Part shown: piece after piece, positions 9,233-22,505 of the stretch
Layout of the letters: each line of letters begins with the position of its first letter
Position numbering within the stretch: position 1 is the stretch's first letter
Origin: Desulfobotulus mexicanus
GTDB taxonomy: Bacteria > Desulfobacterota > Desulfobacteria > Desulfobacterales > ASO4-4
DNA: 64,000 nt
Reading direction: 5' to 3'
NCBI RefSeq assembly: GCF_006175995.1
Contig: NZ_VDMB01000001.1
Location: 62,001-126,000 of the forward strand
The notes under the pieces: generated by a model
The model's database searches: none
The model's input: only the letters and a program-made list of their open reading frames with translations
Told to the model about the DNA's origin: nothing
Translations under genes and position numbers: made by a program

Positions 9233-9282
9233 AAAAAAGCTGAACCATGGAAAGCTGTGTTTCTAAGGTTCAGCTTTTTTTT
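9233..9282. terminator. Strong intrinsic terminator
   Basis: GCTGAACC pairs perfectly with GGTTCAGC, flanked by an A-run and a T-run of eight, so it can work in both directions. It ends the bacterioferritin-like gene. Confidence 0.85.
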
Positions 9283-9384
9283 ATCACATTTGTTAAGCGG
9301 TCTCGTAGGGGCATTCGTAGACAAGTATTGCAAATTCTATTCAGTTGTATATATGTGAAGAGTATTTGCAAAAAAGGAGGCTCC
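9283..9384 (+). promoter_or_regulatory. Promoter/operator region of the AbiE pair
   Basis: AT-rich leader with two related motifs, GTATTGCAAA (about 9327) and GTATTTGCAAA (about 9361), the second just before the ribosome site AAGGAGG. A TTGCAA ... TATATA arrangement could be the promoter. AbiEi proteins repress their own operon by binding repeats at this position, so these motifs are candidate operators. Confidence 0.45.
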
Positions 9385-9981
9385 ATGGGGCAGCAGAAAA
9401 AAATACTTGAGTTAGCCAGGGAGAAAGGGATTATCCGGGCTATGGATGTAGAGGCGCTTGGAATTTCAAGAAATTATCTGTATCGGATGCATAAAGCAGG
9501 GCTTCTGGAGAGATGTGCCGTTGGTCTCTACAAGTTGACGGAAGCTCCCGTAAACGAGAATTTTTATCTGGCAGAGATTGCAAAGAGGCTGCCCCGTGCG
9601 GTTATCTGTCTTGTTTCCGCCCTGAGCTACCATGGACTTACTACCCAGATTCCCCATGAGATATGGTTGACCATTCCCAGAGCGTCCTGGCTTCCCCATG
9701 TGGACTATCCGCCAGTTAATCTGACCTATGTTTCTGGTCTGGCTTATTCGTTCGGTATTCAGGAGCATGTCATAAATGGTGTGTCGGTTAGAATTTACAG
9801 TCCTGCAAAGACGGTGGCCGACTGTTTCAAGTTTCGAAGTAAGGTTGGTCTGGATGTTGCTATTGAAGCACTCAGGGAGGCATGGCGTTCACGTAAAGTT
9901 ACCATGGATGAGCTGGTGGAAGCTGCCGGAGTGGACAGGGTATCGAAAATTATGCGTCCATATCTGGAGGCGGTTGTATGA
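9385..9981 (+). CDS. AbiEi-type antitoxin / autorepressor, 198 aa
   Basis: The N-terminal winged helix-turn-helix (AMDVEALGISRNYLYRMHKAG) and the following AbiEi block (GLYKLTEAP, ICLVSALSYHGLTTQIPHEIW, TVADCFKFR) are typical of antitoxins of the type IV AbiE system. The start at 9385 is set by AAGGAGG seven bases upstream; an earlier in-frame start lacks a site. The stop overlaps the toxin start at 9978. It counters the nucleotidyltransferase toxin and represses the operon. Confidence 0.88.
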   Translation: MGQQKKILELAREKGIIRAMDVEALGISRNYLYRMHKAGLLERCAVGLYKLTEAPVNENFYLAEIAKRLPRAVICLVSALSYHGLTTQIPHEIWLTIPRASWLPHVDYPPVNLTYVSGLAYSFGIQEHVINGVSVRIYSPAKTVADCFKFRSKVGLDVAIEALREAWRSRKVTMDELVEAAGVDRVSKIMRPYLEAVV

Positions 9982-10927
9982 ACCAGAGCAGAAAGAATCC
10001 TGCCCATTCAGTTTTTCAGCGGCTTCTGAACTTTGCCCGAATCAACAGGGTTGATTTTAACCTTCTGCTTTCCAGGTATGGTATGGAGCGCTTCCTTTAC
10101 AGGCTCAGCGTTTCGCCCCACAGCGATCGGTTTGTTCTGAAAGGAGCCAGCCTGTTTCTTGTCTGGAAAGGTCAGAACTACCGGGTGACCCGTGATGTGG
10201 ATTTTCTTGGATTCGGTAGTTCCAATATACGGCAGCTTGCAGACGAATTTTCCGAGATCTGCCGTATTGAATTTCAGGACGATGGCATGATTTATTTACC
10301 TGAGTCCCTGAATGCGGAAGGGATACGTGATAATCAGGAATACGATGGGGTAAGAATCAGTCTGGTTGGCTTGCTCAATCAGGCCCGGATTCCCCTTCAG
10401 ATTGATATCGGTTTTGGGGATGCTGTAACTCCAGCTCCAGAAAAGATCGAATATCCAACTATTTTTGATAGTCCGCCACCTGTTTTGAAAGCTTATCCTC
10501 GATATACGCTGGTGGCCGAAAAAGTTGAAGCAATGGTAAGGCTTGGCATGGCGAACAGCCGGATGAAGGATTTCTATGATATCTGGCTGGTCTCAAAGCT
10601 CTTTTTTTTGATGGGAGTCTTTTGTTACAAGCCCTTGAGAATATCTTCGAGCGGCGACGTACAACTTTTCCGGTATCAACACCGCCTGCCTTTGTTCCTG
10701 CATTTTATGAAGATCCACAGAAGAAAGTACAGTGGAAAGCCTTTGTCAAAAGATCAAAGCCCGATATTCCTGTTGGTGAACTGTCTGTCGTTATCACTGA
10801 TATAATCGTTTTTCTTGCACCTGTCATTGAAAGCCTGCAATCCCACTTACCTATGGGTAAGACATGGCTGCCTGATCGGGGATGGTGTTTCCGGTCGCAG
10901 GAACGAAGACCGGAGGAGAAAGGTTGA
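9978..10927 (+). pseudogene. AbiEii-type nucleotidyltransferase toxin, frameshifted in a T tract
   Basis: The first 210 residues show the nucleotidyltransferase core: FVLKGAS, TRDVDFLGFGS with the metal-binding Asp-x-Asp, and LVAEKVEAMVRLG...MKDFYDIW. After KDFYDIWLVSKL the frame passes through C followed by eight T (10600-10608) and turns into unrelated sequence. The correct C-terminus continues in another frame (LLQALENIFERRR...WKAFVKRSK...FLAPVIESL, stop at 10927). One more T would restore a protein of about 316 residues, the normal length. It may be a pseudogene, a phase-variable gene or a sequencing error. As it stands the product is 275 residues with an abnormal tail. Confidence 0.85.
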
Positions 10928-11042: not shown

Positions 11043-12890
11043 TCAGAATCTGAAATTCATGCCCGCCATCCATTCGCTACCGTCGATGTCCGGCTCATCG
11101 CCCACATTCTTTTCATTGGTGAGGTTTTCAAGGCGGGTAAAAATTTCAAGATTTTTCGTGACATGGTGGGTAATGGCCAGATCCACCATGGTGTAGGCAC
11201 TGCGGGTTTTTCTTATGGCCTGGGTCTGACCGTGCTGCCCGGCCATTTGTTCTTCATAATCCCGTTCCCCTGTCCAGGCCGTGGTAAGGCGGAAACGCAG
11301 GTCGGGCCGTGTCAGATGGTAATCCAGATCCAGTGTTGCCCTGTGTTCGGGCCGGTCGAGAAGGTTTTTCCCCGTATCTTTGTTTTCCGTATCCGTCCAG
11401 GTGTAGCCAAGGGTGGCGGCAAAGGATGATACGGGCCGCCAGATTATGCTGGTTTCTGCTCCCTGGGTGACTGCCTCACTGACGTTGTGGAAGGTCATGG
11501 TGCTTGCCTGGGTGTTTCTTAAGGTTTCAATGAGATCATCGATTTCATTGCGGAAGAAACCTGCCCGTACCAGAAGGCTTTCATGGATCTGATAGTCCAT
11601 GCCTGCCTGATAGGAGAGGGATTTTTCAGGCTTGAGGTCTGGGTTGGCATTCATGGTCCAGTGGCCCATGCGCCAGCCATCGGCATAGAGTTTCAAAAGG
11701 GTGGGGGCCATGAAGGCCGTGCCTGCGGAAGCCCTGAGCCGGAGATTGTCCGTTGCACGGAAAAGAATGCCTGCCCTGGGATGAGCCTCTGTGCCCCACT
11801 CATCATGGTGATCCACACGGCCTCCCACAGTAAGGGAAAGCCTGCCGAAGTCCATTTCATCCTGTAGAAAAACAGCATGGGTATCCTGGGAATCTTTTGT
11901 GTAATCCTTATGCTTGTCGTCAATGGACTCGCCTGAATAGGCATAGCCTGCGCTCAGGGTGTGAAGGCCCACCATGCGGGAATACCCGGTTTCAAATTCA
12001 TGGAGGGTGGACACGGAATCAAAACTTTTGTCCTTTATTTTGTGGTCATGGGAAAAATAACTGCCCCGGACCTGGATTTTTGAGAGGGCATCGGGACGGA
12101 TATCCGCACTGGCATTGAGGCGGCTGCGTTCCTGAATGCGGTTGGCTTTTCCTGTAACCTCATTTGTCTGACGGGAAAAAAAGGGCTGGATGCGCAGGGC
12201 CACCTTATCTGTGGGCCGGTAATCGAGGCTTGCGGCAAGGGTTGAATTTTCCACGGTGTCTTTATCTTTATCAACGCCGGTGGTGCGGCTGTGGGAGTAA
12301 TCCAGGCGCAGTCCCATGTTTTCATTGCCCGTATTCATCCCTGCCGTGGCAAGGGATCGGTTCCGGCTGCCTGCACTGAGACCGGTGCGAAAGTCTGTTC
12401 CTGTTCCTGCTTTTTTTGTGATGATGTGAATGACACCGGCCATGGCGTCGGACCCATAAAGGGCTGAGCCGGGGCCTTTTACGATTTCTATGCGCTCAAT
12501 GTTTTCCACGGGGATGGAGGAAATATCCACACTGTCGTGCCCACCGGTGAAGCGCTGACCATCCACAAGGATGAGGGTCTGGTCCGGGTTCATGCCCATG
12601 AGCCGCACATTGCCGCCATCGCCCCAGGAGCCTGTGTTCTGTTTGATCTGAACGCCGGGGATATCCCTTAAAAGCCCCTGAACGCTTTTAATCTGCCGGG
12701 CTTCAATATCCGCTGCGGTGATGACATAAACCTGACTGATGGCGTCTTCCACCCGCTGCTCACTGCGGCTGGCGCTGACCACAATCTGCTCCAGTTCGCT
12801 TTCGGGTGGGTGAAAGGCCTGGGCTGGCAGGGTCAGAAGGCCTGCTGCCAGAAATGGAAAGAAGGTTTTTTTCAAACTGCTGCAATGCAT
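11043..12890 (-). CDS. TonB-dependent outer-membrane receptor, BtuB/colicin-I-receptor type, 615 aa
   Basis: A signal peptide ending near FPFLAAGLLTLPAQAF is followed by a TonB box (LEQIVVSASR), a plug domain (VYVITAADIEARQIKSVQGLL..., LMGMNPDQTLILVDGQRFTG, ERIEIVKGPGSALYGSDA) and a 22-strand-type barrel ending in the terminal aromatic FRF. It should import a scarce ligand such as a corrinoid, metal chelate or siderophore. No cobalamin riboswitch is visible upstream. Its own promoter region holds a perfect 7-2-7 palindrome (13003-13018) whose half matches a site before the adjoining operon, so the receptor is probably co-regulated with the double-cubane reductase genes. Confidence 0.92.
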   Translation of the reverse strand: MHCSSLKKTFFPFLAAGLLTLPAQAFHPPESELEQIVVSASRSEQRVEDAISQVYVITAADIEARQIKSVQGLLRDIPGVQIKQNTGSWGDGGNVRLMGMNPDQTLILVDGQRFTGGHDSVDISSIPVENIERIEIVKGPGSALYGSDAMAGVIHIITKKAGTGTDFRTGLSAGSRNRSLATAGMNTGNENMGLRLDYSHSRTTGVDKDKDTVENSTLAASLDYRPTDKVALRIQPFFSRQTNEVTGKANRIQERSRLNASADIRPDALSKIQVRGSYFSHDHKIKDKSFDSVSTLHEFETGYSRMVGLHTLSAGYAYSGESIDDKHKDYTKDSQDTHAVFLQDEMDFGRLSLTVGGRVDHHDEWGTEAHPRAGILFRATDNLRLRASAGTAFMAPTLLKLYADGWRMGHWTMNANPDLKPEKSLSYQAGMDYQIHESLLVRAGFFRNEIDDLIETLRNTQASTMTFHNVSEAVTQGAETSIIWRPVSSFAATLGYTWTDTENKDTGKNLLDRPEHRATLDLDYHLTRPDLRFRLTTAWTGERDYEEQMAGQHGQTQAIRKTRSAYTMVDLAITHHVTKNLEIFTRLENLTNEKNVGDEPDIDGSEWMAGMNFRF

Positions 12891-13002
12891 TTCACATCTC
12901 CTTTGAGTCTTAAAAGTGAATCTGATACCACGCAGTCTGAGCTTTGCTGGTCATCAGAAAGGTTAAAGATTTTATGTAAAATAATTTTGCTATGCTTAAT
13001 GG

Positions 13003-13018
13003 TTTAGTCTTGACTAAA
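13003..13018. promoter_or_regulatory. Candidate operator, perfect 7-2-7 palindrome
   Basis: TTTAGTC-TT-GACTAAA, about 113 bases upstream of the TonB-receptor start. The flanking 12-mer GGTTTAGTCTTG (13001-13012) recurs in reverse at 18494-18505 before the operon starting at 18311. Likely bound by a dimeric repressor whose gene is not identified here. Confidence 0.55.
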
Positions 13019-13085
13019 ACAGCGGCAATGACTGTTCAATGCAGGGTATGAACTTCCATGGCCGCAAGGATCACTACTCCTGCAC

Positions 13086-13733
13086 TCAGGCCATCGCCAG
13101 GCCCAGTATCAGGGTTTTGATACCGAAAATGGCCACCACCAGACCTGCAGCCCTGGAAAAGCCTTCAATCTGCCGGGGGAGCTTCCCGGCCATGCCCGCC
13201 CCTACCCAGCCCATGGCCATGCAGGCCAGAATCAGGGGAGAAAGGCTGGTGCCAAGGGTGAAAACCATGGCAAGACCCGCACCCTTCATGGCGGAACCCG
13301 AGGCTGCCGCTGCCGCCATCATGGCCGCATAGGGCAGGCAGGGCACCAGAGGGCTTGCCAGGCCCAGCAGCAGGGGAGGGGCAGCGGCCCTTTTTCTGCT
13401 TGCACATCCGCTGCACCTTGGCCGGAACAGGAGAAAAAGTCCTGCCAGCAGGGTGAAAAGGCCGGAAGCCAGAGTCATGGACGGTGTTTCTAACCGGGCC
13501 ATGGCTGCCTGCCCCAGCCCGCCGAAGATGGCACCGAGAAGTCCTGCGGTGAACAGCCTGCCGGAAATAAAGCTTAGCAGGGCCAGTATGCCGTCCGAAG
13601 GTTTCCGGCTGTTACCCAGAATGCAGGTTCCCATCAGTGGAAGACAGGAGGTGCTGCAGATGCCAAGGCCAAAGGCCAGCCCCGCGAGAAAGAGGGCTGG
13701 AAATTCCAGGGGAAGCGCAGGCAGACCACTCAT
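13086..13733 (-). CDS. DsbD_2/TauE-like (ArsG-like) membrane protein, 215 aa
   Basis: About six hydrophobic helices. The first contains GLGICSTSCLPLMG, a Cys-x3-Cys-Leu-Pro motif at a helix start as in the short DsbD/CcdA and UreH-like group, where it moves electrons or metal ions across the membrane. A second cysteine cluster (RPRCSGCASRKR) is on a loop. Related proteins have been annotated as sulfite exporters, urease-accessory UreH or arsenical permease ArsG; which applies cannot be told from sequence. The start codon overlaps the stop of the activase gene, so it belongs to that operon. Confidence 0.75.
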   Translation of the reverse strand: MSGLPALPLEFPALFLAGLAFGLGICSTSCLPLMGTCILGNSRKPSDGILALLSFISGRLFTAGLLGAIFGGLGQAAMARLETPSMTLASGLFTLLAGLFLLFRPRCSGCASRKRAAAPPLLLGLASPLVPCLPYAAMMAAAAASGSAMKGAGLAMVFTLGTSLSPLILACMAMGWVGAGMAGKLPRQIEGFSRAAGLVVAIFGIKTLILGLAMA

Positions 13734-14530
13734 GCGGCGGCCACCATGTGGGCATCCCTTGCCAGCAGGGCAGCACCGATGGCCGTTGTTATCTGCGGCC
13801 AGGCCGGGACATGGATATCCAGGGCCAGTTCATCTTCTATGGCCTTTACAAGGCCTTTATTCAGGGCAGGTCCGCCGTCAAAGGCCACGGGTTCCGTTAC
13901 GCCCACCCGCCGTGCCATGCGGGAAAGTCGCCTTGCTATGGCATAATGGGCCCCTGCTGCGATTTCCGATGGGGCTTTTTTACGGGCAATGAGGGAGATT
14001 ATTTCCGATTCAGCAAACACGGCACAGGTGGCATTGATTTTAAGAGGAATCTCCGCTTCCATGGAAAGGGGGCCTAAGTCTGTCATATTGATTTCCAGAA
14101 TCCTTGCCACGGTTTCCAGAAAACGGCCGGTTCCTGCGGCGCACTTGTCATTCATGGCAAAGTTTTCCGTAACGCCGAAGCTGTCTACGCTAATGACCTT
14201 GCTGTCCTGACCGCCGATGTTGAGGATGGTGCGCACGGGTGTTTCAAGATCCGTGCAGCTCCAGGAGGTTCCCCGGACATTGGCCGTGATTTCACTGATC
14301 ACCTCATCGGCAAAGGGAATCAGGCGGCGGCCATAGCCCGTTGCCACGGTTTTGCGGATGTCTTCCCGCTGGAGGCCGGTTTCACGGAGAAGATCCTTCA
14401 GGGCTGTTTCCACGGTGTCTCCGCAGTGTACGCCCGTGGGCTGCACCCTGCTTCCCATAAGGCCTTCGGTATCCATGAGGGCTATTTTTGTGGTGGTGGA
14501 GCCGATGTCTATGCCAAGGTAAAGATCCAT
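13730..14530 (-). CDS. ATP-dependent activase of 2-hydroxyacyl-CoA-dehydratase / double-cubane type (HgdC/BadF family), 266 aa
   Basis: An actin/Hsp70-fold ATPase: phosphate-1 loop GIDIGSTTTK (residues 6-15), NIGGQDSK near 104-111, and the two cysteines Cys130 (NDKCAAGTG) and Cys169 (INATCAVFAES) that hold one 4Fe-4S cluster between the subunits of the homodimer. The enzyme uses ATP to push an electron at very low potential into its partner, here the HgdB-like protein encoded 88 bases upstream. AGGAGG sits before the ATG. Coupling to a NapH-like iron-sulfur protein in the same operon suggests quinol or ferredoxin as electron source (inference). Confidence 0.92.
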   Translation of the reverse strand: MDLYLGIDIGSTTTKIALMDTEGLMGSRVQPTGVHCGDTVETALKDLLRETGLQREDIRKTVATGYGRRLIPFADEVISEITANVRGTSWSCTDLETPVRTILNIGGQDSKVISVDSFGVTENFAMNDKCAAGTGRFLETVARILEINMTDLGPLSMEAEIPLKINATCAVFAESEIISLIARKKAPSEIAAGAHYAIARRLSRMARRVGVTEPVAFDGGPALNKGLVKAIEDELALDIHVPAWPQITTAIGAALLARDAHMVAAA

Positions 14531-14618
14531 ATATCCTCCTTTCCCATAGGGACGCCCCAGCTTCTGACCTGAAAGCTAAAATGATCTTTTTCAGGGAAGG
14601 CGGGGGCAAAAAATTTGT

Positions 14619-15995
14619 CTATGCGCTTTTTCCCATGCGCATCCGTCTGCCTTTAAGGGTTTCCACAAAGGCTTCCACACGGGTGCGCAGGGGTTCCGTA
14701 TCTTCGGGACTGTAGTCCGTTTCTATTTTGAGCTGTGAAACCCCTGCCGCAGCAAGCTCCGCTTCCAGGGGGCGCAGCTCCATGTCATAGGGATGACACC
14801 CCTTCAGTACATGGTGCACCACGCCTTCCACCTTGTAATCCTTTATCATTCTGAAAAGTCTGGTTTTTCGGTCTTCCCTGTCCGTGAACACGGGGCAGGT
14901 GCAGGGCAGGAGGCAGCGGTCCGCCAGAGCATCCAGCATATCGTCAAAAAGGGGTTCGTCTATGCAGGCCATGTCCCAGAGCAGCCTGCCGGAGCTGCAC
15001 AATTCGTCACAGGTGAGGGTGCCACCAGCATTTTCAATGAGATCCGGTATTTTCCAGTTGGGAAAAATCACAGGGGAGCCGGTGAGCAGAATGCGGGGGG
15101 CCGCCTTCGGAGCTGTGCCAAGGCCTTTTTTCTTTCTTTCCAGAAGCTCTTCATTGAGATTTTTTGCAGCAAGGGTCCAGTCCGCCGCATCCATATAAAA
15201 CCAGGCATTGGCTACGGCAGCCGCATCCCTGCCCCGGATAAGGGAAAGGTCATCCATGCGCAGGGTCTGCAGCCTTCTGAATTCCTGCTGGGCCTTGTGC
15301 ATCATATCCATGGCAGCCCTCAGTTTTTTTCTGGTGATGCGCTTTCCGGTAATCTTTTCCAGTGCATGCATAAGTCTGCGGATTTCTGCGTACCAGAACC
15401 TGCGGGAGCTTTCCGCAGCCTTGAATTTTGGGACAGAGAGCATCATGACCGGAACATGACGGGAGATCAGCTCCCCCAGCTTGACCTTCCAGTCGCAGGT
15501 GGTGGGAATGATGATGAGATCGCATTCCCTGTACATGGGCAGAACACCGGTGCGGGTGAAGCCCGTGGCTGCTTTGACCATGGGACAGGAGACATCGGGA
15601 AAAAGAGCTTCTCCGGCTTCTGCGGCATCGCCGCTGCCTGCACAGAGCCTTACGGGAAGGGCACCTGCGGCATAGATCAGTTCTTCAGGTACGGCCATGC
15701 AGTAGATGCCGATTTTTTTTCTGCGTGTTGGGGGCAGAATTTTTTCCGGTGCATCGGCAAAGTTTTTAAAAAGCGTGTCAAAGGGGGCCATGGATGCGGG
15801 CCGGTTTTTTTCCAGGGCAATGTTGTCAAAGATTTCCCGCACGGCCATGCCCATGTGCAGGGACAGGCGTCTGGCCACACGGTCTTCGGGAGAGATTTTT
15901 GAAGATTCCTTCGGGTCTGTTGGGACCTCAGGGGTTCCGGCAGCTTTTATTTTTCCGGAAATGGCCGATAGTTTCTGGATAAGGGCAGATTTCAT
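14619..15995 (-). CDS. HgdB-like double-cubane-type iron-sulfur reductase, 458 aa
   Basis: A single-subunit member of the 2-hydroxyacyl-CoA dehydratase family. Family landmarks: GIYCMAVPEELIYAAGALPVR (given in part, about 96-116), Cys137 in FPDVSCPMVK, Cys167 in IIPTTCDWK, Cys329 and Cys333 in CDELC, Cys365/367 in PCTCP, and Cys400 in LKGCHPYDME. True dehydratases use two different subunits; one subunit plus an activase matches the double-cubane cluster proteins, ATP-driven reductases of small molecules. No CoA-pathway genes are nearby. The stop of the upstream NapH-like gene overlaps its start (ATGA). Substrate unknown. Confidence 0.85.
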   Translation of the reverse strand: MKSALIQKLSAISGKIKAAGTPEVPTDPKESSKISPEDRVARRLSLHMGMAVREIFDNIALEKNRPASMAPFDTLFKNFADAPEKILPPTRRKKIGIYCMAVPEELIYAAGALPVRLCAGSGDAAEAGEALFPDVSCPMVKAATGFTRTGVLPMYRECDLIIIPTTCDWKVKLGELISRHVPVMMLSVPKFKAAESSRRFWYAEIRRLMHALEKITGKRITRKKLRAAMDMMHKAQQEFRRLQTLRMDDLSLIRGRDAAAVANAWFYMDAADWTLAAKNLNEELLERKKKGLGTAPKAAPRILLTGSPVIFPNWKIPDLIENAGGTLTCDELCSSGRLLWDMACIDEPLFDDMLDALADRCLLPCTCPVFTDREDRKTRLFRMIKDYKVEGVVHHVLKGCHPYDMELRPLEAELAAAGVSQLKIETDYSPEDTEPLRTRVEAFVETLKGRRMRMGKSA

Positions 15996-17011
15996 CTGGA
16001 AGCACTTTCTGGGTCTGTGACGGAATCTTGCAGAACCTTGGCATCATCATGGGCCTTGGCTGCGTAAGCTGTTTTTGCCTGACGTTTAAGGAAGCCTTCG
16101 GCGGATGCGGAAAAAACGGGCAGTCCTATGATGGTGGCCGTCAGGGCCTTGTTTTCCGGGCATACTTCAATGCAGCGCATGCAGAGCATGCAGTCCTGGG
16201 TGACAATGTGTTTTTTGTCCCGCAGCTCTGCGATCTCCCGGATTTCCATGGGACAGGCCCTGAAACAGTTGCCGCAGCAGGTGCAGGCTTCCCCCTTTTT
16301 TTTAAGTCCCACAAGACCGATGCGGTCAAAGAGGGAAAGCAGGGCAGCCATGGGGCAGAAGGCGCAGATGTAGCGGCGTTTGACAAAGCCTCCCACAAGG
16401 AAAAGTCCTGCAATGAGCATGGAAAGGCTAGAGAGAATGAGCTTGGTGGCACTGGAAAAATCAATGATCAAATGGCTGGTGTCGCCTGCAAAAAGGGGAA
16501 TGATGGGTTTACCCGGACAGATCTGGCAGAAGGGGACTGCCAGATCCGCTGTGAACCGGGGCAGTCCCATGAGGCTGTTTCCTATGCCCATGGGTAAAAG
16601 AATGAGCAGCACTAGAAGGGCGTATTTAACCCACTGGAAGCGGTCCCGGGTTTTCCATGCAAAGCGGGAGCCGTCAATGCCCACCCATTCCCGGATTTTT
16701 GTGATCATATCCTGAAGAAAACCCAAGGGGCATATCCAGCCGCAGAAGGTTTTGCCAAAAACTAAGGCCCAGATGAAAAAGGTGCCCAGATAGACAAGGA
16801 AGGGGATGGCAGCGCTGCCGAAGAGGCTGGCCCAGGGCATGGAAAGAAAACGCTGGAATGGATAAAGAAAACAGGAGCCTCCCCGGTTTTCCGCATAAAT
16901 ACAGGCCATGGTGGGAATGGCACTGCCAATGGAAAATACGCTAAGGCCGCCATATATGAGAAAAACAAAGCACAGGGTTTGAACAAAGAGTCGGATACGG
17001 TCTATGCGCAT
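15992..17011 (-). CDS. NapH/CcoG-like membrane 4Fe-4S electron-transfer protein, 339 aa
   Basis: Four to five membrane helices with the paired Cys-x3-Cys-Pro motifs of the NapH/NosR/CcoG group (TFCGWICPLGF and YICAFCPMAAL). A C-terminal two-cluster ferredoxin domain follows (CTCCGNCFRACPMEI and CMLCMRCIEVCPENK). Such proteins take electrons from quinol at the membrane and pass them to a soluble or periplasmic partner. Here the next two genes encode the double-cubane reductase and its activase, so it may be their electron donor (inference). GGAGG precedes the ATG. Confidence 0.88.
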   Translation of the reverse strand: MRIDRIRLFVQTLCFVFLIYGGLSVFSIGSAIPTMACIYAENRGGSCFLYPFQRFLSMPWASLFGSAAIPFLVYLGTFFIWALVFGKTFCGWICPLGFLQDMITKIREWVGIDGSRFAWKTRDRFQWVKYALLVLLILLPMGIGNSLMGLPRFTADLAVPFCQICPGKPIIPLFAGDTSHLIIDFSSATKLILSSLSMLIAGLFLVGGFVKRRYICAFCPMAALLSLFDRIGLVGLKKKGEACTCCGNCFRACPMEIREIAELRDKKHIVTQDCMLCMRCIEVCPENKALTATIIGLPVFSASAEGFLKRQAKTAYAAKAHDDAKVLQDSVTDPESASR

Positions 17012-17081
17012 GGTTTTTTCCTCCGGACTGTCGAAAAAACGGGTGTTTCCTTGCGGATATTAGTGCTTGAGGGTGGTAGTA

Positions 17082-18311
17082 TCAGAACCATCTTCCCCTC
17101 CTTTTTCTTCTCCGGATGGCCGTACCCAGTCCGATGGCAAGGCCCGTGAGAATGAGGGTATAAAATCCTGCGGCACGGCTTTCCCAGTCCAGGGGGGTGG
17201 GATGAACGGGCAGGGCAAGGGATGTGCGGAGAATTTCTGATTTTCCAGCAGGGTGTTCTTCACCTGTTTTAGCCCGGGCCTTTTTTATTAGCTGCCGGTG
17301 CCCTTCGTAATCACTGTTCAGTTCTGTCCTTGCATAAAAGGTGATGGGTGCTTTGTTTACACCTTTGCCATGGAACCTTTCTTTGATCAGGACGAAAGTG
17401 ACCAGACCGGCCTCATCGGTGTTCAGGGTCTGTTGCCAGCCCTCTGCCGTGGTGAGGGTAACGGGAAGGTCCGGTACGGGGATGCCCCCCAGCCGGATTC
17501 TCAGGGGCAGGGTGTCGCCCGTGTATTTTCTGTGGACTCTTGCAAAGTTTTTGCCCGGATCCGGACTCAGGTCTTCCATGGAAAACCATGGCAGATGGAC
17601 GTCAAGGGCAGCTTCCGGATTTTTTTCGGGGGGGTCTGTCTTTTCTCCTGTGTTGCGCATGGAAGCCGTGGTGAAAAGCCTGAATATCCTGCCCACATCG
17701 TCGGTTTTTTCCAGTGCTGCGCTGATGTGGTAGGTTCCCTGAATCAGGGCCGCATCCCGGATGCGGATGGCAGGACCTTCTTTTTCTGGTGCAAGAATCT
17801 CTCTGGAAAGGTCCGGTCTCAGGATGGCAGTCTCTGCCCTGAGAAGCTCCTTTGAGGCTTCGGCTTTAATGGCAGGCGGCCAGCCCAGAAGCAGGGTATA
17901 GTGGGCGGGGTGGGACATGGCAGCTCTTTTTTCCCGTTCTTTTTTTTCTCCTTTTTCCGGTTCAGAAGCCCTTGATCCGGGATGCCCCTTTCCCTGGGAT
18001 TCCATGGGGCTTTTTTCTCCCTTTTCCTTCATTCCTGTTTTTTTGCTGCCGGAGTGTGTTTCATTTTCTGATGTATCCTGCCCCTCTTTTTTTCTCTGTG
18101 TGCCAGCACCTGAACCATGACCACCTCCATGGGCATTGCCGCCACCGGAACGTCGCATTTCAGGGCCGGGTTCAAGGAAAAGAAAGCCCGGGTCTGCAGG
18201 GCTTGTCATGGGAAGGAAAAAAAGAAGAGTAAGGAGCAGTGGAAAAAAACATGTCCCTCTGCGGGGTTCGGGTATGGGCAGAATGCATATGGCCGAGGAA
18301 CGCTTCTTCAT
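17082..18311 (-). CDS. Exported protein with Gly/His- and Lys/Glu-rich linker and C-terminal helix, 409 aa
   Basis: Signal-peptide-like helix at about residues 21-38, then a low-complexity stretch at about 52-130 beginning with GGGNAHGGGHGSGAG and continuing as Lys/Glu/Ser-rich sequence. A beta-rich domain follows (about 135-375) in which IRLGGIPVPDLPVTLTTAEG and TDEAGLVTFVLI resemble the DUF4198/NikM-type periplasmic fold seen in the divergent gene at 18997. The end is a membrane helix and a basic tail (IRRRKRRGRWF). Histidines in the linker could bind metal. It is the first gene of the operon that continues to 13086. Function is not established. Confidence 0.75.
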   Translation of the reverse strand: MKKRSSAICILPIPEPRRGTCFFPLLLTLLFFLPMTSPADPGFLFLEPGPEMRRSGGGNAHGGGHGSGAGTQRKKEGQDTSENETHSGSKKTGMKEKGEKSPMESQGKGHPGSRASEPEKGEKKEREKRAAMSHPAHYTLLLGWPPAIKAEASKELLRAETAILRPDLSREILAPEKEGPAIRIRDAALIQGTYHISAALEKTDDVGRIFRLFTTASMRNTGEKTDPPEKNPEAALDVHLPWFSMEDLSPDPGKNFARVHRKYTGDTLPLRIRLGGIPVPDLPVTLTTAEGWQQTLNTDEAGLVTFVLIKERFHGKGVNKAPITFYARTELNSDYEGHRQLIKKARAKTGEEHPAGKSEILRTSLALPVHPTPLDWESRAAGFYTLILTGLAIGLGTAIRRRKRRGRWF

Positions 18312-18487
18312 GGGTAAAAAAAACCTTTTAAAAATTATGTATAGTTTTCTGGGTGATGTTCTGAACAGTCAGGGATTTTTTTTTGTATTTTTTTAGTCCG
18401 TATTCAGCCCTGGAAAAGTGGGAGCTGAAAATCCCTGCGTTATTTCGGGAAGAGATAGTCGGGCTTTCCTGTGAAGTCAAGAATAAA

Positions 18488-18505
18488 ATTTGCCAAGACT
18501 AAACC
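18488..18505. promoter_or_regulatory. Second copy of the operator-like sequence
   Basis: Positions 18494-18505 are the exact reverse complement of the 12-mer at 13001-13012. The palindrome is imperfect here (ATTTGCC-AA-GACTAAA). It lies about 180 bases upstream of the 18311 start codon. Confidence 0.5.
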
Positions 18506-18534
18506 AGTTTATGCCTGTAAAGAATCTTTAGCAA

Positions 18535-18553
18535 TGTAAAGATGCGCTTTACA
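18535..18553. promoter_or_regulatory. TGTAAAG-N5-CTTTACA inverted repeat
   Basis: A perfect 7-5-7 palindrome next to a related 5-3-5 palindrome at 18518-18530. The GTAAAG word occurs again near 18895. Possible binding sites of a second regulator of this locus. Confidence 0.4.
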
Positions 18554-18723
18554 AAATCATTGAAGGGAGAGCCGGAAGATATGGGAAAGGGGAACCCTCT
18601 ACGGGTGCCCATTGAGGGCACAGAGCTTGTTTTTGGTATTTTGCTATTGTTCAGCTCATTTTATTCCGAGATTTCAACCTTGTAACTTTAACAGCTTTAA
18701 GCCGTTGCAAGTCACCTTCGCTG

Positions 18724-18754
18724 TTTGCAAGTGACCTTGCAATCGTTTCGGATT
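18724..18754. repeat. Dispersed intergenic repeat, copy 1
   Basis: A 31-base stretch matching the reverse complement of 52124-52154 at 30 of 31 positions. It is preceded by a partial direct copy at 18704-18717 (TTGCAAGTCACCTT). Confidence 0.7.
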
Positions 18755-18996
18755 GCGTCACGGACAAATGGCCTGGGTGTCTTTGCATCTGCCTGACGCT
18801 TATGGTTTTTAGAAAAATGTGCTGAAAGGTTACCTTGTTTTTTTGATTCAGGTTCCCGCAGCTTAAGATGTATGGGTCAAAAAAGTTTGTCTTTGTAAAG
18901 TTTGTTTTTACAATTTAAAAACAAATTGACTTTTAAAAAACGGAAATGTAGGCATTGCTTTAGATTTTTCGTTTAAACTAAAAAAGGGAGAAAGTG

Positions 18997-19815
18997 ATGA
19001 AGAAAAAAGCAGGAAAGATTATCACCGGTGCAATTTTGGGGTTGGGTTTACTGGTATCCCAGGTTTCTGCCCATGATCTGTGGGTGAATATGACGGAATA
19101 TACTCCTGCCCTCTGGCAGCATGCCAAGTATGCGCCAACGGCAAGGGCCAAGACAGTGGTTTATTTCGGATGGGGTCACAGTTATCCCATGGCGGATTTT
19201 ATTTCTGACAGGGTATGGGGAGGACTGGAGCGCATAGAGCCCGATGGCAGTCGTATTCCCATGGAAGTGGGAACGGAGGGCTTCCGGGCATTGCGTGTGG
19301 ATATGCATACCCCCGGTGCCAGGGTTTTTGCGGCCCATACAAAGCCAGCTTATTATGGGCCTGTGGAAGGGAAAAAGGATTTTCACCAGATCTATTATGA
19401 AAAATATGCCAAGGCTCTGGTTTCTGTGCTGCCCCAGCGAACCCTTCCCCTGGACGGGCCGGACAGCAATCCCTTTGCAACACCCATAGGACATAAGGTG
19501 GAGATTGTGCCCATGGTTAATCCCAACCGGCTGCAGCCGGGGGACAGCCTTGAGGTCAGGGTGCTGGTGGATGGGAAGCCTGCTGCGGATTATGAACTGG
19601 CAGCCAGCAGCCTTTTTGCTGCCAATGCGAAGGAAGTGAAGACCCGGACCGATAAGTCTGGCATGGGAAGTCTTGTTCTTGAAGAATTTTACGGTCCATG
19701 GATAGTGAAGGCCAGCCGGAGTTTTCCCGCAACAGGGGAAAAGGCATTGAAATGTGAGAGTATCAGTTACACTGCCACCATGACCTTTGCTTTGCCCTAT
19801 ATCAGAGGTAATTAA
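18997..19815 (+). CDS. DUF4198 (NikM-like) periplasmic protein, 272 aa
   Basis: A signal peptide ends at VSQVSAHDLW; the mature N-terminus HDLWVN supplies the histidine seen in DUF4198/NikM-type metal-uptake proteins. The C-terminal half contains LQPGDSLEVRVLVDGKPAADY and DKSGMGSLVLEEFYGPW, typical of this beta-sandwich family. It probably binds a metal or metal chelate delivered by the TonB receptor, as such proteins often accompany nickel or cobalt importers; no ECF importer genes are present here. I take the ATG at 18997 (GGGAG upstream) over the GTG three bases before it. Confidence 0.85.
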   Translation: MKKKAGKIITGAILGLGLLVSQVSAHDLWVNMTEYTPALWQHAKYAPTARAKTVVYFGWGHSYPMADFISDRVWGGLERIEPDGSRIPMEVGTEGFRALRVDMHTPGARVFAAHTKPAYYGPVEGKKDFHQIYYEKYAKALVSVLPQRTLPLDGPDSNPFATPIGHKVEIVPMVNPNRLQPGDSLEVRVLVDGKPAADYELAASSLFAANAKEVKTRTDKSGMGSLVLEEFYGPWIVKASRSFPATGEKALKCESISYTATMTFALPYIRGN

Positions 19816-21780: not shown

Positions 21781-22505
21781 TTATTTGCGCGGATCCAGTT
21801 TTCTTGCCTCTTCCAATGACTTGTTAAAATCCATAAACAGAATTTCTTCTGGCAGGTCCCGGTCATGGAGGTGCACAAGCTCATCTCGAAGTGCTTCAGT
21901 CAGAACTACAAAGGATTGAATCTTTGATCCTTTAAGCCTAAGAATGGTTTCTTCTAGGGCAAAGGTGGCACTTAAGTCAATGAAGGGAATTCTGCGGCAG
22001 TCAAAAATCACCACCTTTGTACCCAGCACCTCGTCCACCTCATCCACAAGCTTGCTCGTGGAGCCGAAGAAAAAGGGTCCGTCGATTTCCAGGATACGTA
22101 TGTTGCCTTCCATGGCATCGGAGCGGTTGTCATCCGGGGGATGAATGCAGAGGTTGTCTGCCGGATCATGCGATGGATGATCATGGCCATCAGGCAGCCC
22201 ATGATGATCTGGATGAGTCCTGCAATGAGTACAGCAGCCATGGCCATGGAAAGATCACCGCCTACGGAAACAATAACGGAAGCAAAAACAACGGTCATGG
22301 GTCCGGTGGGACCGGATATCTGGGTACGGGTTCCACCAAAAATGGCGGCCATCATGCCCAGCATTATGGCTCCGTAAAGGCCTGCGGCTGCTCCTGCGCC
22401 GGAAGCGACTCCAAAGGCCAGGGCCAGGGGGAGGGCGACAATACCGGCGGTTAGTCCGCCGAAAAGATCTCCCCGGAGGGTGTTGATGGAAAAGACTTTA
22501 GTCAT
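21781..22505 (-). pseudogene. SulP-STAS anion carrier remnant: internal deletion plus frameshift
   Basis: The first 110 codons are nearly identical to the intact SulP gene at 31955-33532 (SINTLRGDLFGGLTAGIVAL...). The reading then jumps from IQIIMGC straight to MIIHRMIRQ, losing about 290 residues of membrane core. Shortly after, the frame shifts, so the STAS half (MEGNIRILEIDGPFFFGSTSKLVDEVD... to 21781) is in another frame. The STAS part alone is an intact 110-residue frame starting at 22113 and could be translated, but transport is impossible. ATGATC-like words flank the deletion joint. Confidence 0.9.

Follow-up and report, generated by a model that had tools for sequence, protein, structure and literature searches.

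What an ATP-driven double-cubane reductase does beside a TonB-dependent receptor is the question raised by a locus of Desulfobotulus mexicanus, located at positions 11043–19815 of the 64,000-nucleotide stretch analyzed here (hereafter the window). Anaerobes commonly encode double-cubane proteins, to which no natural substrate has been assigned to our knowledge. A sequence-only reading of the window had grouped into one locus a receptor, two periplasmic DUF4198-like proteins, a NapH-like protein, a pair formed by an HgdB-like protein and its activase, and a DsbD-type membrane protein, and had suggested that something imported through TonB is reduced at very low potential. Profile searches found all of these genes where that reading had placed them. 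The comparisons reported below support that receptor, DUF4198-fold proteins, NapH-like protein and double-cubane pair are one evolving unit, and in our judgement the arguments are about evenly balanced on whether the locus is a periplasmic metal-complex reductase supplied by the TonB receptor.

A gene set that recurs across bacteria

The locus is transcribed mainly from the minus strand, in the order P6 (a membrane-anchored periplasmic protein, 17082–18311), NapH-like membrane ferredoxin protein (15992–17011), HgdB-like double-cubane protein (14619–15995), activase (13730–14530), DsbD_2 family membrane protein (13086–13733) and TonB-dependent outer-membrane receptor (11043–12890). Genes for the NapH-like and HgdB-like proteins overlap by 4 bases, as do those for the activase and DsbD_2. 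The gene for a secreted DUF4198 protein (18994–19815) lies on the plus strand, divergent from the P6 operon. Gene order is identical, and the receptor syntenic, in two further Desulfobotulus genomes (L053 and L054); the nearest named locus is that of D. alkaliphilus ASO4-4, with a NapH-like protein 90% identical to that of the window.

Recurrence of this arrangement was assessed from the NapH-like protein. An alignment was built and 395 genomes of the phylum were then searched, a relative at E ≤ 1e-30 being present in 15. A scan of named genomes, with selection on NapH similarity alone, provided 67 loci spanning Desulfobacterota, Nitrospirota, Campylobacterota, Spirochaetes, Sporomusa, Fidelibacterota, Bacteroidota and others. 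The HgdB-like gene directly followed the NapH-like gene in 61 of the 62 loci with room for it (the exception being L157), the activase gene came next in 54 of 55 (exception, L142), and a DUF4198-fold partner was present in 59 of 62. A TonB receptor was found nearby in 48 of the 67 loci and in 31 of the 37 flanked by 4.5 kb or more on each side, being missing from L128, L134, L141, L145, L160 and L163. These 37 full-flank loci also contained genes for TonB (22), ExbB (19), ExbD (19) and DsbD_2 (20). By contrast, 18 control loci encoding HgdB-like double-cubane proteins without a NapH gene had no DUF4198-fold partner and no TonB or Exb protein; 12 had an activase, and receptors were seen in three, each scoring below 95 bits. 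Detection queries were members of the same clusters, so that these counts show recurrence and not independence; the protein clustering spanned 92 loci, some of which are one genome under two identifiers.

The cassette is widespread, often carries its own ExbB, ExbD and TonB, and occurs in two subtypes. The neighborhood link between reductase, receptor and DUF4198-fold proteins is thereby borne out, and the earlier proposal of one locus stands as regards a conserved, linked unit; it is qualified by the opposite orientation of the DUF4198 gene and by a 195-base gap between the DsbD_2 and receptor genes. In the literature listings searched, no description of this gene set was found, nor any paper joining double-cubane proteins with TonB, or a cobalamin riboswitch with 2-hydroxyglutaryl-CoA dehydratase.

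The reductase pair and its partners

The best NCBIfam model for the HgdB-like protein (458 amino acids; PF06050, 326.5 bits) is double_cubane NF040772, with 337.1 bits, just under the curated cut-off of 350. Its closest solved sequence (PDB 6eno/7yyl, E 3e-69) is the double-cubane cluster protein DCCP of Carboxydothermus, whose activase partner is DCCP-R. In DCCP, six cysteines bind an [8Fe-9S] cluster, and proteins of this family are characterized by reducing small substrates in an ATP-dependent manner. Residues C99, C137, C167, C333, C367 and C400 of the HgdB-like protein align with cysteines of 7yyl, and each is kept in 73–76 of 75–78 members. The activase, of the BcrAD/BadFG type that acts as an ATP-driven electron donor (PF01869, 194.1 bits; TIGR00241, 251.4), has two cysteines, C130 and C169, conserved in 63 of 63 members. 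The HgdB-like protein is the sole HGD-D protein in the genome, which encodes no HgdA-type second subunit; it therefore lacks the two-subunit constitution of 2-hydroxyacyl-CoA dehydratases and benzoyl-CoA reductases, in line with the earlier observation that the locus has no CoA-pathway genes. The likeness to DCCP and DCCP-R thus extends over closest solved sequence, aligned cysteines and paired activase, whereas the tie to a NapH-like protein, DUF4198-fold proteins and a TonB receptor sets the window's protein apart from DCCP; neither NapH nor partner occurred in the 18 controls. Separately, a different double-cubane protein was seen in L270 (6094–15015) together with a CbiK-like gene with a leader sequence and a nearby receptor, without NapH.

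The protein encoded just before the HgdB-like protein has the Fer4_5 domain of PF12801-type members and two 4Fe-4S motifs. It scored 80.2 bits against the curated NapH model TIGR02163, far below the cut-off of 213, and is accordingly designated NapH-like only. Sixteen cysteines are invariant in 71 of 71 or 72 of 72 members; hydropathy and charge suggest that C37/C47 and C162/C165 lie at the outer face of the membrane, with the remaining cysteines inside.

On the periplasmic side, the secreted DUF4198 protein matched PF10670 with 82.3 bits (cut-off 34). A histidine, His27, directly follows its apparent signal peptide, whose cleavage was judged by eye, and a His-x-[LM]-W motif occupies this position in 14 of 14 members of the cluster. 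In a published study of a DUF4198 member, the N-terminal His and His18 are reported to bind nickel with a Kd of 18 nM, and TonB receptors and NikR are among the neighbors of the family (PMC12537917). A formyltransferase label for DUF4198 was discarded, PDB sequence searches giving weak matches only and the fold search naming those entries Zcp. P6 has no Pfam sequence match. The predicted structure of the window's P6 (predicted local distance difference test, pLDDT, 72) gave a VIA Z of 16.9 to Zcp, whose solved structures contain Zn, Cu or Co, and of 14.8 to the Ni-DUF4198 structure 9gcb, the next unrelated fold reaching 6.1; a model of P6 from the main clade (pLDDT 88) gave 17.6 to Zcp and 14.3 to Ni-DUF4198, far above other folds. 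In hhalign comparisons the C-terminal domain of main-clade P6 reached 93.6% against DUF4198, only 35% was obtained with the profile built from three rows for the P6 of the window, and P6 and c6, its counterpart partner in the other clade, were related at 94.9%. On these models, P6 is predicted to have the DUF4198 fold.

The solved structures nearest to the receptor (615 amino acids; PF00593, 187.5 bits; PF07715, 98.3) are CirA and, when its whole length is compared, BtuB; against TIGR01779, the model for the vitamin B12 receptor BtuB, it scored 231.8 bits, below the cut-off of 599.7. In DsbD_2 (PF13386, 62.9 bits) four cysteines, C26, C30, C110 and C132, are conserved over 23 members.

Two clades and their likely cargo

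A tree of 70 NapH-like proteins split a clade with c6 partners from one with P6 or c21 partners (Shimodaira–Hasegawa-like approximate likelihood ratio test, 96), and the partner label changed 7 times on this tree versus 30 in shuffles. The window belongs to the P6/c21 clade. For the c6 clade, eight loci chosen for corrinoid signs were surveyed, and Rfam models identified 12 cobalamin riboswitches in six of them. Riboswitches stood directly before the c6-NapH-HgdB genes in L131, L134 and L082, and before the receptor gene in L137. Fusions of BtuF and CbiZ (PF01497 with PF01955) were encoded in L134, L130, L092 and L096; genes for CobN, CbiK, CbiG/CbiJ, CbiE-J-type and NifH/NifDK-like proteins were found at other c6-clade loci, and CobN-like proteins with DUF2162 and ExbB-like genes at several. 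The cobalamin riboswitches and the BtuF-CbiZ, CobN and CbiK genes link the c6 clade to corrinoids; such signs did not appear in the P6 clade. At one locus of Sporomusa ovata (L136, 3505–9072), the cassette is immediately preceded by CobN pieces and, after these, NifH/NifDK-like genes controlled by a cobalamin riboswitch; the latter genes possibly encode a tetrapyrrole-reducing nitrogenase homologue.

In the window, a palindrome, TGTAAAG-N5-CTTTACA, precedes both the P6 operon (18535–18553) and the DUF4198 gene (18894–18912), and these are its only exact matches in the genome; it was set aside as the sign of a wider regulon, as sites with one mismatch were chance-like (14 matches versus 6 in the reversed control). 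In L057, cassette genes and a DUF4198 gene end with CbiM (score 288, cut-off 173). This was not taken as proof for the window, since it is a single locus on a short contig in which a second CbiM piece replaces part of NapH, so that misassembly of this contig is possible. In L279, a receptor with 32% identity to that of the window occurs without a reductase; downstream of it come DUF4198 and a NikL-like gene (29.5 bits, under the cut-off of 100), beside CODH/ACS genes. A separate DUF4198 gene accompanies 7 of the 22 P6-clade rows whose P6 lacks a motif HHxCxWGH and none of the 24 rows with it (counts that include duplicate genomes and truncated contigs), a sequence pattern that looks as if the metal site had shifted out of P6 into a separate DUF4198 protein. 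A candidate nickel permease, L089_6, was rejected for absence of Pfam support.

The locus shares with nickel and cobalt systems (NikK, CbiM/NikM) the association of DUF4198 with a TonB receptor and, in L057, CbiM; unlike them, it adds a reductase and has no energy-coupling factor (ECF) transporter. The earlier statement that no ECF or ATP-binding cassette (ABC) importer is present holds for the window's locus, where CbiM/NikM with energizing subunits was not found, but not for the family, in view of CbiM in L057, of Wtp genes beside L153 and L085 and of a ZnuA-like gene beside L139 (see below). Two CbiM genes lie elsewhere in the window's genome. Among the substrates proposed earlier, corrinoid or metal is upheld in outline by the sister-clade riboswitches and corrinoid genes and by nickel binding in DUF4198, whereas thiol and organometal compounds found no specific support. 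The window's version most likely handles nickel or cobalt, and the sister-clade cargo is probably corrinoid-related.

Beyond the locus, an AbiEi/AbiEii-type pair adjoins it at 9247–10927; the AbiEii match ends at profile position 170 of 238, overlapping a following open reading frame (ORF) in another frame, and the pair thus looks broken. A SulP-type gene at 21781–22505 is short, with an ORF of 165 amino acids and a separate small one, compared with 564 and 523 amino acids in L053 and L054.

Proposed function and competing explanations

The core loci lack an inner-membrane importer and almost always have a periplasmic metal-binding partner beside NapH, which would place the chemistry in the periplasm and direct electrons outward. 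On this basis, the receptor would import a scarce chelated metal into the periplasm, where the secreted DUF4198 protein and membrane-anchored P6 would keep the metal complex on the outer surface of the inner membrane. On the cytoplasmic side, ATP hydrolysis by the activase would drive single electrons onto the double-cubane protein. From there they would pass, at very low potential, to the NapH-like protein's ferredoxin domain, and this protein would conduct them through the membrane to the complex held outside. Once reduced, the complex would be weakened or activated and thereby made usable by the cell, and the freed metal would enter via a separate transporter, such as the CbiM found once. 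In its full form, the proposal is of an ATP-powered line that sends low-potential electrons outward, with activase, double cubane and NapH-like protein as its wiring; its periplasmic targets would be corrinoids and further cobalt or nickel complexes, whose metal would be stripped or activated by reduction. In this form the proposal is tentative, and we regard it as possible rather than probable.

Two described architectures resemble this scheme. Assimilatory reductases of the PepSY type (eLife 2021, PMC8238504) likewise pair a TonB receptor and DUF4198 with the passage of electrons across the membrane to a metal in the periplasm; here a NapH-like carrier and an ATP-driven double-cubane donor would replace PepSY, no PepSY membrane protein being detected among the locus proteins and no flavinylation gene being seen in the window's locus. 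The Hmu heme de-chelatase system, with HmuS (PMC12583661), shares TonB uptake and reductant-linked metal release, and CobN-like genes occur in some sister-clade loci; the window's locus differs in encoding a double-cubane reductase and no CobN-like protein. By resemblance, the ATP-driven double-cubane donor would be the new element with respect to both.

Several observations weigh against a periplasmic cobalt or nickel reductase in the window. Cobalamin riboswitches are absent from the window and from eight loci of its clade. The receptors are diverse, and no conserved pocket residue was found in them. The HHxCxWGH motif, present in 24 of 46 P6 rows, is missing from the window's P6. The extra outer-face cysteines of the NapH-like protein are mostly shared by 5 of 11 other, non-cassette NapH-like proteins and were for that reason dropped as a cassette hallmark. 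In two loci from different clades, tungstate transporter genes immediately precede the cassette (WtpA, over its cut-off, in L153, 633–3452; WtpB-like in L085, 169–1988), and in L139 (6368–9828) the reductase genes are followed by ABC genes and one for a ZnuA-like binding protein. No Fur box was found, and nearly all upstream regions were not above shuffled controls. Finally, a different operator-like motif precedes the receptor in nine distinct loci of the window's clade. Between 1 and 5 copies of it were found in each of the 9 genomes (the reversed control gave 1 in total), and it also precedes NosL and C_GCAxxG_C_C genes that have a sensor kinase and a Fis-type response regulator as neighbors, a pair that is presumably RegB/RegA-like. 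In sulfur-cycle bacteria (L193, L198, L206 and L209) the motif reads GCGACAATNNGNCACATT and stands before or near NosL genes and such regulator pairs. This association fits redox control and would suit copper too. It is an argument for copper, iron or some other redox metal as the cargo in the window's clade, the system then being a redox-controlled periplasmic reductase with an assimilatory or detoxifying role, an option to which the iron reduction by PepSY systems with DUF4198 and TonB receptors also lends weight (PMC8238504). The motif is, however, missing from the window and its close relatives, which like the lack of a Fur box and the CbiM and NikL-like neighbors in the nearest subgroup makes this option unlikely.

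Electrons could also flow in reverse, from quinol or another membrane donor through the NapH-like protein to the activase, the double-cubane protein then reducing an imported compound in the cytoplasm. Activases accept electrons from ferredoxin-type donors, the NapH gene stands directly before that for the HgdB-like protein, and NapH proteins are regarded as quinol-linked; a RACo-like gene near the L131 cassette and the NifH/NifDK-like genes near that of L136 encode cytoplasmic reductive proteins as well. Set against the missing inner-membrane importer of the core set and the partner beside NapH in 59 of 62 loci, reverse flow appears doubtful, if worth serious consideration. Reductive demetallation of heme or another tetrapyrrole, with the cassette as electron source for a reaction like that of HmuS, would draw on the CobN-like proteins with DUF2162 and ExbB-like genes of the sister clade and on the NADH-dependent reaction of HmuS, a CobN-like de-chelatase (PMC12583661). 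This seems improbable, given that the window's locus has no CobN-like gene and the riboswitches indicate corrinoid; a search for a heme pocket in the receptors gave no conserved histidine between the FRAP-like and NPNL-like boxes, the window's histidine being proline in relatives. Lastly, the receptor might be an unrelated neighbor of a trio of NapH-like protein, HgdB-like protein and activase that functions alone, as the 195-base gap, the lack of a common operator seen at the receptor and its absence from 6 of 37 loci would allow. That a receptor was retained in 31 of the 37 loci, frequently together with ExbB, ExbD and TonB, and seen in 3 of the 18 controls renders this very improbable.

For a subfamily of double-cubane proteins, the partner set together with corrinoid riboswitch control in one clade provides a context that is concrete and testable. 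If electrons do run outward, the cassette would represent a new way of coupling ATP hydrolysis to periplasmic chemistry. A periplasmic metal-complex reductase of this kind would, if true, give a double-cubane protein its first physiological job outside CoA chemistry, and would be the first nitrogenase-like energized reductase acting on a periplasmic substrate.

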